DNA of 64,000 nucleotides from Chitinophagaceae bacterium (lineage in GTDB: Bacteria > Bacteroidota > Bacteroidia > Chitinophagales > Chitinophagaceae), in contig CANCPA010000003.1 of NCBI GenBank assembly GCA_947379895.1, positions 1 through 64,000 of the forward strand. The letters run 5' to 3'. This document shows, one piece after another, positions 9,277-45,525 of the stretch; positions within the stretch are counted from its first letter, which is position 1, and every line of letters starts with the position of its first letter. Position numbers and translations under genes: made by a program. Under the pieces are notes generated by a model. That model had not been told where the DNA came from and did not search any database. It was given only the letters and a program-made list of their open reading frames with translations.

Positions 9277-10197
9277 ATGGCATCTTCAAAATTAAAACAA
9301 GATTTATTGGGTAAAGGAATCAGGTCTCTATTGCAAAATATAGATACTGATTTGCAAACAACTGAAGGGAAACTTAAGAATGAGGTAGTAGATAAAGTAA
9401 CTACATCTCAAAGGATTCCTTTAGTGGATATTGTCATTAATCCAAAGCAACCTCGTCGCGATTTTGATCAAACTGCTCTTGAAGAGTTAGCGTCATCAAT
9501 CAAGACTCATGATATCATACAACCGCTTACCGTTTCTCAATTAGCAAATGGTAAGTATCAATTAATAGCAGGTGAGCGTCGTTTTCGTGCAAGCAAGTTA
9601 GCAGGATTAGTTGATGTGCCTGTTTATATTCGTCAGGCAAATGATGCTGAATTATTAGAACTAGCTCTATTAGAGAATTTACAAAGAGAAAATTTAAACG
9701 CAGTTGAAATCGGGCTTAGCTATAAAAGAATGATGGATGAGTTGAGCTACACGCAAGAACAAGTAGCTGAGAGAATGGGAAAAGAGCGTAGCACTGTAAC
9801 CAATTACATACGTTTATTAAAGCTTCCTCCCGATGTACTATTTGCTGTCAGGAATGGTACTTTAAGTATGGGACACGCTAGGGCTTTGATAAATATCGAC
9901 ACTGTAGACAAGCAATTGTATGTATTTAACGAAATAAAGGAAAAAGGGTTAAGTGTAAGGCAAACTGAAGAGTTTGTAAGAAACTTATATAAATCGGAAA
10001 AACCTAGTGCTAAACAAGCGAATACATATACACTTCCACCTGCCTACAAAAAAATTGAAGACAATTTGGCTTCACATTTTAGCACTAAAGTTAAGATGGC
10101 GGTAAATAAAAATGGCACAGGAAGTATTACTCTAGAATACTTTTCGTTAGATGAATTGAATAAGATTCTTGATCAAATGAACGTTGTTGTTAGCTAA
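9277..10197 (+). CDS. parB: ParB/Spo0J partition protein
   Basis: LIAGERRFRASKLAG; ENLQRENLNAVEIG; HTH EQVAERMGKERSTVTNYIRLLKLP. Confidence 0.95.
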   Translation: MASSKLKQDLLGKGIRSLLQNIDTDLQTTEGKLKNEVVDKVTTSQRIPLVDIVINPKQPRRDFDQTALEELASSIKTHDIIQPLTVSQLANGKYQLIAGERRFRASKLAGLVDVPVYIRQANDAELLELALLENLQRENLNAVEIGLSYKRMMDELSYTQEQVAERMGKERSTVTNYIRLLKLPPDVLFAVRNGTLSMGHARALINIDTVDKQLYVFNEIKEKGLSVRQTEEFVRNLYKSEKPSAKQANTYTLPPAYKKIEDNLASHFSTKVKMAVNKNGTGSITLEYFSLDELNKILDQMNVVVS

Positions 10198-13644: not shown

Positions 13645-14127
13645 ATGAATACAAAAATACTGTTACTAGTTCTAATTACCATTATTCTTTTCGCTTGTAA
13701 TAAAACTAATTCCTCTAATCCTCAACTTACTTTTGTTAGTGTTAATAGTACTTCCTTACATACAGGCGATCAATTAATATTCAACTTAAGCTTTACTGAT
13801 GAACAAGGTGAGGTAGATACTTTGTTTATTAAACGAGTTTCAAAGGTTTGTTCGGATACAGCAAATACAGGTTGGGGATTAGATAGCACGGAATATCCTA
13901 CTCCTATTCCTTCTTATCCCTCAACAAAGCGTCAAAAGGGCACATTATCTATCAATTTTGGATACAGTAAAGACCCAAACAAGATTAATACATGTTATCT
14001 TCTTTCTGATGAAACAAGAGGGACTTCAAAAACAGATACTTCATATTTTAAGTTTTGTCTCAAAGATGCAGCAGGACATTTGAGCGATACGGTAAGTTCT
14101 CCCGCAATAACATTCTTACTTAATTAG
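13645..14127 (+). CDS. Hypothetical lipoprotein
   Basis: LVLITIILFAC lipobox. Confidence 0.6.
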   Translation: MNTKILLLVLITIILFACNKTNSSNPQLTFVSVNSTSLHTGDQLIFNLSFTDEQGEVDTLFIKRVSKVCSDTANTGWGLDSTEYPTPIPSYPSTKRQKGTLSINFGYSKDPNKINTCYLLSDETRGTSKTDTSYFKFCLKDAAGHLSDTVSSPAITFLLN

Positions 14128-23209: not shown

Positions 23210-23884
23210 TTAGTTCATTGAAATTGTAATTGGAGTAGCAACACTTAAAGCACTAACACCATTTGAGTTTCCTGAAAATGCGTACGCATTATATTCAGTA
23301 TTTACCTTTAAATTAGTAAATGTCTTTACTCTTTGTTGCGATACATCAAAAATTATTGTAGGATTTGTTCCTGCAGGCAAAATTAATACACCGTTTATGA
23401 ATGAGGTACCCTCAGGTAATAAATTAGCTTCAATTAATAGGATGCCATAATAGTTTGCACCTTCAACTTTATGGTATTCAATTTTTTGTACACCTGTAGC
23501 CATCCGTTGCGTTCTATAAAAATGTGCCACTTCAAGGGTTGTTATCCCACCTGTAATTACATTATTTTCGTGAAATCCAGAAAGTTGTGCCATTTCTGAA
23601 CTTAAATTTGGTAGCAAATTAAGATAACTGTGCAACGAGTCGAGCATTCCTAAAATTATATTCCTTGCTGTAATAAGCGGACCTTTCATTCCTTTACCAC
23701 CCGAAATATAATCTGAACTTGCTTTATTGTATTTTTCTACAGCCTCCAAAAAATTAACTTTCGTTACAGGGGGTAATAAAAAAATTAATACATACGCATA
23801 CAGGCCGTTTGAGATGCCAGTAAGAAACTTTGCAAATGTGGGCTTATCCATATAAGGATAGTCCTTTAAGACGGAAACTTTCAT
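23210..23884 (-). CDS. Uncharacterised 224-aa protein, helical N-terminus and Fn3-like C-terminus
   Basis: C-terminal FTNLKVNTEYNAYAFSGNSNGVSALSVATPITI resembles an Fn3 last half; directly 3' of the locus B array. Confidence 0.65.
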   Translation of the reverse strand: MKVSVLKDYPYMDKPTFAKFLTGISNGLYAYVLIFLLPPVTKVNFLEAVEKYNKASSDYISGGKGMKGPLITARNIILGMLDSLHSYLNLLPNLSSEMAQLSGFHENNVITGGITTLEVAHFYRTQRMATGVQKIEYHKVEGANYYGILLIEANLLPEGTSFINGVLILPAGTNPTIIFDVSQQRVKTFTNLKVNTEYNAYAFSGNSNGVSALSVATPITISMN

Positions 23885-24135
23885 AATTAAACAATTTATT
23901 TGTTAATAATAATGCAAAGTTAGATTGTATATACAAATAATAAATAATTATTTGTGGTTCAAATACCTTATTAATTGGTTTTCAAATATTTTTTTTCACT
24001 TTAAAATCATCATTTATTTTAATATAAGCCGCTGTTGCTTATCAATTTGTACCTAATCTGCTCTCTTTTTTTGATTAGTTTTTAGGCTAATTTAGTTGAT
24101 AACTCTTCCCATTGTTTTAGCATTGAGTGCAGTAT

Positions 24136-24429
24136 TACTAAATAAGCGTTCCCTTATTTAGTGAAAAATAAAAAGAGTCATGTTTTGTTTAAACAGGGTA
24201 ATGTTTTCACTAAACATGACTCTGTTTTGAAATAAAACTTCAATGTTTTGTCAAAACATTACCGTTTTGTATGGTTTCAATGCCAAGGTAGGGGGATGAA
24301 TTGGAGTGTAACAGTGGAAAACAGTAATGTTTAGTGAAAACATTACCCTGTTTTGAAAAAAAACTTCATTGTTTGCGCAAAACATTACTCTTTTTATTTT
24401 TTTCATGATAATGTTTAAAATAGACTTGA
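24136..24429. repeat. 21-bp-register degenerate palindromic tandem array (locus B), about 14 register positions
   Basis: Unit starts 24178, 24199, 24220, 24241, 24262, (divergent 24283), 24304, 24325, 24346, 24367, 24388, 24409; unit taatgttttGTGaaaacatta. Confidence 0.9.
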
Positions 24430-24786
24430 TAAAGCATATTAAAAATGAGTTTTTCTTTTATGTAAACATTAAGGTTTTCCATTGTAACAGGGTGATATTT
24501 AATAAAATAATGGTGAAATTGTCAAAAGATAATTTGGTATTAATGCTCTTGCTTCCATACTTTTTGCACTTTTTTTAAAGCGGCTATTAAAATATTATTA
24601 TGATAAAGGATATTCAGGCTAAAAATGAATCCATAAAAATAAATGACAAGGAAGTTGCTGTATCAAAAGTACATTTTCGAGCATCTGTTTTGAGCAATTA
24701 ACAAAGAAGGTGACAGCTAATCCTAAACTTAACTACACCAATTGTAGTTTAAAAATTTTAAAACATTCATAACTCTTAAGTCACTA

Positions 24787-25368
24787 TTATTTTAAAATTG
24801 CGTTTCCTTTGGCAGCACATTTGCGGCATCTTGGTTCGTACATTTCCTTTTCACCTACTAATATCTGCCCCGATTGTTCGGTCTTTCGGTACGAAATAGA
24901 TGCAATATTTCCGCAGCCAACACAAATAGCATGAAGCTTCGTAATGTAATCTGCAACTGCAAGTAAACTTGGCATTGGTCCAAAGGGTTGTCCAAGATAG
25001 TCCATATCAAGTCCTGCAACAATGACTCTGATCCCTTTTTGGGCAAGTGTTTGACATACATTAACAATCTCTGCATCAAAAAATTGAGCCTCATCAATTC
25101 CAACTACATCTACATCATTTGCCATCAAAAGTATGGTTTGAGAATTGTCGATTGGTGTCGATAATATTGCATTAGAATCATGACTAACAACACGTATTTC
25201 ATCGTAACGAGTGTCGATAGAAGGCTTGAAAATTTCTACTTTCAAGTTAGCAATTTTCACCCGTTTTAATCTACGAATGAGCTCCTCAGTCTTCCCACTA
25301 AACATGCTACCACAGATAACTTCAATCCATCCACTTTTTTCTCCGCTTAAATTTGGCTCAATAAACAT
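24787..25368 (-). CDS. tdk: Thymidine kinase
   Basis: [23 protein letters not shown]; zinc-binding cysteines. Confidence 0.96.
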
Positions 25369-45247: not shown

Positions 45248-45349
45248 ATTTTTTGTTTTGTAAATCCATTATAGATTTTTATGATTAATAAACTATTTAA
45301 AATTCTTTTTATGCTTATTGTACATTATTCCGCATTAGATTCTATTTTT

Positions 45350-45525
45350 TCTTTCTCGAAAAGAACTTTTTCTAACGTAAAAAGGGCTTTTTCTTATATA
45401 GAAAGAGTTCTAGCTTGTTGGAAACAACCCTTTCTATGTTGAAAACAAAACATTCTAACATAGAAAAACTTGTTTCTTCATCAGATAAAGTTGTTTCTTC
45501 TGTGGAAAAACTTCTGAATCAGACA
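45350..45525. repeat. 21-bp-period degenerate tandem array (locus C), 8 or more units
   Basis: Unit starts 45350, 45371, 45392, 45413, 45433, 45454, 45475, 45496, 45517 (spacing 21,21,21,20,21,21,21,21). Confidence 0.85.

Follow-up and report, generated by a model that had tools for sequence, protein, structure and literature searches.

Intergenic 21-bp arrays in a Chitinophagaceae genus: fixed step, free sequence, and a possible two-turn geometry

What is a tandem array in strict 21-bp register doing between two genes of a Chitinophagaceae chromosome? The array lies in the window, by which we mean the whole 64,000-nucleotide stretch of DNA analysed here. A first-pass annotation had offered three readings of it: a binding array, a structured transcript, or a decaying or variable heptad module. 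The array, its internal inverted repeat and its two neighbouring genes are placed as follows.

23210–23884, minus strand: 224-aa neighbour with N-terminal helices and a C-terminal fibronectin type III (Fn3)-like domain (predicted structure, Fn3 chains); the array is upstream of its start
24170–24400, no strand assigned: 21-bp array of 11 units, most of them near-palindromic, consensus AAACATTGCAATGTTTTGTCA (lag-21 test, unit dyads, paralogues)
24191–24217, no strand assigned: 27-bp perfect inverted repeat, arm 1
24327–24353, no strand assigned: 27-bp perfect inverted repeat, arm 2
24787–25368, minus strand: thymidine kinase (PF00265, E 8e-56); the array lies ~390 bp past its 3' end

The array is real. 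The self-identity of 24166–24400 is 0.495 at lag 21, 0.487 at lag 42, and 0.633 at lag 126, whereas dinucleotide shuffles (n = 1000) gave 0.286 ± 0.032 at lag 21, with a maximum of 0.383. This comparison had been set beforehand as the test that could refute the array, and the signal is far above the shuffles. The four units quoted in the first-pass annotation start at 24199, 24241, 24325, and 24367, all on the register 24178+21n, and the register is maintained, as claimed, across the diverged stretch around 24283–24303. The annotated 27-bp inverted repeat is exact, and the 41-bp direct repeat was recovered as part of an 82-nt repeat with a spacing of 126 and an overall identity of 77%. The dyad of the unit consensus measures 12, against 4.8 in permuted units, and the units are 65% identical to their own consensus. 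They run head to tail with no spacers, so the array was rightly said not to be a CRISPR, and stops in all six frames of 24170–24400 agree with the earlier denial that it is one clean ORF.

The 224-aa ORF has no match in Pfam. In its predicted structure (pLDDT 88) the C-terminal domain matches Fn3 chains with a TM score by target of up to ~0.7. The family is divergent, with members in 10 of 13 genomes of the genus. Homologues consistently lacking arrays in their upstream regions would have spoken against a link between gene and array; 14 of 18 upstream gaps contain an array, where 5.1 were expected from length-matched gaps (p 2e-5). Within a fixed 900 bp, arrays lie upstream in 16 of 23 cases and downstream in 2. 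The association with the family is genuine yet incomplete: most arrays have other genes beside them. We dropped the idea that arrays are exclusive to this family; a profile search of 20-kb stretches brought up no further member of it close to arrays. One orthologue pair with and without an array (L067, L073) had no alignable upstream flank and hence gave no empty-site junction. An exact step of 20 bp in place of 21 occurs in some of the arrays that precede relatives of the 224-aa gene (L062, L055, and L069, in genomes G007 and G010). In the window, a TAnnTTTG near 23925, which we take to be a Bacteroidota-type -7 motif, suggests that the array lies upstream of a promoter carrying it.

The window array belongs to a foldback element of ~240–350 bp, of which three dispersed copies with 77–82% identity are present in the 5.3-Mb genome of this organism (G000; C numbers denote its contigs). 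The further copies, at C176:179-409 and C89:3135-3364, are 77–78% identical to the window copy and ~82% to each other. All three have common ends, GAAAAATAAAAAGAGT and ACTCTTTTTATTTTT, and unrelated flanks. The parts of the element in the window are these.

24160–24180, no strand assigned: left outer arm, GAAAAATAAAAAGAGT, where the homology of the three copies begins; base-paired to the right arm when the alignment is folded
24390–24406, no strand assigned: right outer arm, ACTCTTTTTATTTTT (copy comparison, alignment fold)
24403–24511, no strand assigned: right part, non-repetitive, common to the C89 copy (349-bp match)

The homology with the C89 copy extends to 24511 (a 349-bp match to window 24164–24511, 72%), and within the element's right part an inverted copy of 24307–24357 lies at 24439–24489. 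The combination expected of a MITE or foldback element, namely dispersed copies, common ends, and terminal inverted repeats, was found in the window family only (ends AAAAATAAAAAGAGT/ACTCTTTTTATTTTT). The region 24160–24412 folds into a long hairpin, with z-scores of -9.1 as RNA and -11.1 as single-stranded DNA. RNAalifold of the three copies gave 89 pairs, five of them with two-sided change; the covariation term is unfavourable (+4.9), and the three-copy alignment is therefore no proof of an RNA. No target-site duplication is visible in the flanks of the three copies, and no empty site was found. Searched against 150 relatives, the element DNA gave no true homologue beyond its own genome, apart from two weak matches of 30–40 bp; it matched no phage or plasmid, and nothing within the window matched Rfam at gathering score. 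As a foldback element, the window copy appears to have reached two further places in the genome. Elsewhere, dispersed MITE-like elements of ~165 bp with 91–93% identity adjoin arrays (L209:14853-15017, L242:17541-17705, and L215:5173-5336), and a second MITE-like family has members with 80% identity at L027:13719-13879 and L226:2591-2751.

Two further arrays lie in the same window.

About 198–313, no strand assigned: second window array, unit TCATGAGGTCTCACTGTATAT (lag 21)
45340–45520, no strand assigned: third window array, with relatives at C26 and C144 (77–78%)

The G000 assembly comprises 5.32 Mb in 401 contigs and is 99% complete. We scanned 1.25 Mb of it, about one quarter, counting for each lag the places where self-identity over 80 bp reaches 60% or more. 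This gave 47 places at lag 21 and 43 at lag 42, with 3 each at lags 22 and 41; higher multiples were also well represented (32, 33, and 19 places at lags 63, 84, and 105), and lags 10, 11, 19, 20, 23, 31, 32, 52, and 53 gave none. A period of 7 is common as well, at ~30 places in the same 1.25 Mb. The base periods 28, 35, 49, and 56 are absent from it, so that 7 is not the quantum and 21 is a quantum of its own. In a 483-kb scan against locally shuffled triplets, the control had zero matches at every lag. Period-7 arrays were seen at L031:14967-15146 and L010:17427-17594 (GTTTAAG, TTATTGT), and period 7 occurs in other Bacteroidota. Extrapolation from the 1.25 Mb gives a total of ~200–250 arrays in G000.

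We called 60 arrays, of which 43 occupy gaps of 150 bp or longer flanked by ORFs of at least 120 aa; nearly all are intergenic and few sit inside ORFs. One 489-aa ORF contains a 42-bp repeat that has 75% identity to an intergenic array at another locus (L042:6842-7311, L223:13835-14181). Array density is ~0.25 per kb, equal in co-directional, divergent, and convergent gaps, and frequency grows with gap length, from 2% of gaps of 150–300 bp to 39% of those above 1000 bp. Most arrays in G000 adjoin unrelated genes, housekeeping genes included, among them proC, dut, and trpC and, judged from translations only, engB-, rplU-, and rplI-like genes. On contigs C1–C20 the arrays are spaced by ~16 kb (on C2 at 13.6, 29.8, 46.1, and 61.3 kb), and their spacing is somewhat more regular than expected at random (CV 0.47 vs 0.65, p 0.03). 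Lengths are mostly 150–380 bp, and short arrays are not in excess, with a KS p of 0.003 at the detection floor and of 0.06 above 140 bp. The even spacing and the shortage of short arrays are weak hints, and assembly limits could affect both. The genomes are drafts, in which long perfect arrays may be collapsed.

The 21-bp class is common in the genus, whose members are Chitinophagaceae MAGs, and rare in other genera. Other genus members have 18 lag-21 places in 385 kb, other Chitinophagaceae and Chitinophagales 2 in 818 kb, and other Bacteroidota 5 in 689 kb. The named genomes closest by thymidine kinase are likewise Chitinophagaceae MAGs, and isolate names suggest a lake or pond habitat. The places outside the genus counted under other Bacteroidota include arrays of 21 or 42 bp in a Kiruna MAG (L194:3551-3882, 9282-9558, and 13689-13833) and one array in the cultivated Taibaiella soli R1-15 (L173:19536-19893). 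An exact 41-bp step occurs in some relatives' arrays. In open-access full text, which is what the search covered, we found no account of 21-bp intergenic arrays of Bacteroidota.

Orthologous gaps reveal both persistence and turnover. We compared the syntenic sites proC–dut and trpD–trpC, leaving out the site of an exonuclease-like gene, where synteny is lost, and the rplU site. Synteny at proC–dut was confirmed by tblastn, and arrays are present there in five of seven species: G000 (435 bp), G001 (291), G004 (285), G006 (285), and G007 (312, recognised by eye). These five genomes have four unrelated unit sequences; G004 and G006 differ by 15 mismatches and no gap. The two species without an array at this site, G010 and G011, have gaps of 78 and 89 bp. 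Between trpD and trpC a strong array (score 0.78–0.98) is found in seven of nine genomes, the exceptions being G008, with a 2-bp gap, and G011, with a gap of 1122 bp. Units at both sites are mostly unrelated between species. At trpD–trpC, however, G004, G006, and G007 have a common last unit of the ATGCGGCATTAGATGAAC type, but different units have taken over the interior: CATAAGTTCAAGC in G006, CAAAGTGTTAACC with intermediates in G004, and the more palindromic CTTATGCGGCATAAG form in G007. These arrays show unit-by-unit homogenisation, a case of concerted evolution in place. Taking both sites together, an array is present at 10 of 14 other-species sites. Tested against the long-gap rate of 36%, this has p 0.008; tested against a rate of 4% per junction, which is our own estimate, it has p 9e-12.

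The sequence of the units is thus free to change at one place, and it also varies between the arrays of one genome: we found no motif universal to the arrays, and a dispersed relative was detected for 17 of 60 within the sampled quarter of the genome. The architecture is more constant. Against a control that permutes unit columns and preserves the period, foldback z was -2 or lower in 26 of 43 arrays (~60%; mean -2.7, s.e.m. 0.37), and the remaining ~40% have no foldback excess over the control. Unit-consensus dyads alone, a less informative test than this foldback comparison, are significant in only 13 of 45 arrays, and a unit-level alignment fold returned no structure in 30 of the 49 arrays tested. 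Over 19 arrays we counted 40 two-sided changes between units that preserve a pair, where shuffles gave 18. Five of these arrays are individually significant, but the excess is no more than suggestive, because the units within one array are related. Period-21 waves in R/Y (purine/pyrimidine) and M/K (A,C/G,T) have 1.8 times the permuted power, and the W/S wave has no excess at 21; R/Y and M/K waves of this kind are a product of dyads. A phased A-tract bend was rejected, as AAA/TTT autocorrelation at 10–11 is about -0.02 to 0.00, with no ~10.5-bp phasing. When indels were compared with substitutions in array and non-array pairs, lenient gap costs made compensating gap pairs, and MITE-like controls were gapless too.

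Within a genome, REPs share a single motif and are linked to a RAYT. The arrays resemble REP/BIME and REPIN sequences in being short intergenic palindromes, sometimes tandem, and dispersed through the genome, but each array here has its own sequence, and the window family has 3 copies. Five matches to the Y1 (REP-type/IS200) transposase, PF01797, are present in G000 (C21:27980, C137:10581, C269:8, C240:2, and C69:11758). Bacterial minisatellites or VNTRs likewise have tandem units of ~20 bp and homogenisation; VNTRs, however, are not known to share a single unit length across a genome and genus. Plasmid iterons are argued against by the presence of about one array per 20 kb of chromosome. The nearest described systems are the Borg tandem repeats (PMC9879509) and the TAACTGA heptamers (PMC4679880). 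Borg elements, which are archaeal, contain perfect tandem repeats of various unit lengths, about half of them in ORFs (PMC9879509). Like the 21-bp class, they comprise many locus-specific arrays per genome that arise independently, some intergenic and some foldable, but here the units are diverged, the step is nearly always 21 (or 42) bp, and the setting is the intergenic DNA of a bacterial chromosome. TAACTGA heptamers are found in Beggiatoaceae, Cyanobacteria, and some Bacteroidetes, in the type genome mostly just upstream of start codons, and a regulatory role has been proposed for them (PMC4679880). They too are abundant intergenic direct repeats of patchy distribution, but they are one fixed 7-nt sequence, whereas our arrays are free in sequence, have a step of 21, and do not favour gene starts.

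Twenty-one base pairs are two turns of B-DNA, and the constraint is therefore probably geometric. Our leading reading, which we hold tentatively and a little short of an even chance, is that the window array is a member of a genus-wide class that conserves an architecture, a 21-bp step with often dyad-symmetric units, and not a sequence. The class would act at the DNA level and undergo concerted evolution, and may be a shape-read protein platform. Slippage or unequal exchange in 21-bp steps would alter the units, and hairpin-templated correction would perfect their palindromes. A protein, or supercoiled DNA itself, could read the equally spaced dyads on one helix face with little base specificity, such reading would retain the two-turn step, and the array might serve as an intergenic platform for docking, bridging, or insulation. 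In favour of this reading are the lag profile, the distribution over the genus and beyond, the persistence at orthologous sites, the homogenisation at trpD–trpC, the foldback in excess of periodicity, the period-21 waves, and the fairly even spacing along contigs. The equal density in the three gap orientations favours a DNA-level over an mRNA-level role; the density in divergent gaps, together with the freedom of sequence, argues against a purely RNA-level or motif-specific one. Against this geometric reading stand the ~40% of arrays without foldback excess and the lack of a common motif, the exact 20-bp steps in some relatives' arrays, two orthologous sites that do without an array with no visible harm, and the fact that self-propagating satellites would persist as well.

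The main rival, which we consider nearly as likely, is a functionless mutational satellite: some quirk of replication or repair in the genus would create and homogenise tandem duplications of about two turns and perfect their palindromes, and arrays would regenerate. The unrelated units of different arrays speak for it, as do the rise from 2% to 39% with gap length, by which any long gap serves as a site, the absence of orientation preference, the homogenisation at trpD–trpC, and the independent origin of tandem repeats in Borg elements (PMC9879509). Yet most species carry arrays at the same orthologous gap, above the 36–39% long-gap rate, lengths of mostly 150–380 bp come with no excess of short arrays, and there is no known mutational cause for exactly 21 either.

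The other readings are less probable. That the arrays act as tandem hairpins in transcripts (intercistronic spacers, 3' ends, or small RNAs), in the manner of REP/BIME on mRNA, is unlikely: divergent gaps, not usually transcribed through, are equally dense, ~40% of arrays fold no better than the control, the window has no Rfam match, and the reading offers no reason for 21, even though folds are strong, pair-keeping changes exceed those in shuffles, and one array lies within the trp operon between the co-directional trpD and trpC. We regard it as slightly less likely still that the arrays are non-autonomous mobile foldback (MITE-like) families that happen to consist of 21-bp units. The window family, with three copies, common ends, and outer inverted arms, fits this description, and so do the dispersed relatives of 17 arrays, but for most arrays no relative was detected, nor was a target-site duplication recognised, and the trpD–trpC arrays are inherited in place. 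A coding or formerly coding heptad module is very improbable; 21 bp make seven codons and a few arrays lie in ORFs, but every one of the six frames of the window array is interrupted by stops, relatives have arrays of exactly 20 and 41 bp that cannot hold frame, and arrays are overwhelmingly intergenic. The heptad module thus falls from the readings first offered, and the binding array and the structured transcript both still stand.

Returning to the geometric reading, its fullest form, which we rate somewhat lower, would be a sequence-free cis element: ~200 intergenic platforms per genome in which only the two-turn step and dyad symmetry are conserved, read by a protein or through the geometry of supercoiled DNA and renewed by concerted evolution. 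If this were true, such elements could act in nucleoid organisation, in insulation, or in expression between genes. Because their sequence is not conserved, arrays of this kind are invisible to standard homology searches. Bacterial tandem repeats are usually viewed as sequence families whose unit length is free. In this genus the unit length is constant and the sequence is free, differing between species at one orthologous place. This raises the testable question of whether selection or a mutational machine can act on nothing but helical spacing and symmetry. A protein that reads the arrays would be a chromosome organiser of Bacteroidota that recognises shape; otherwise the arrays would point to a mutational ruler of two helical turns.
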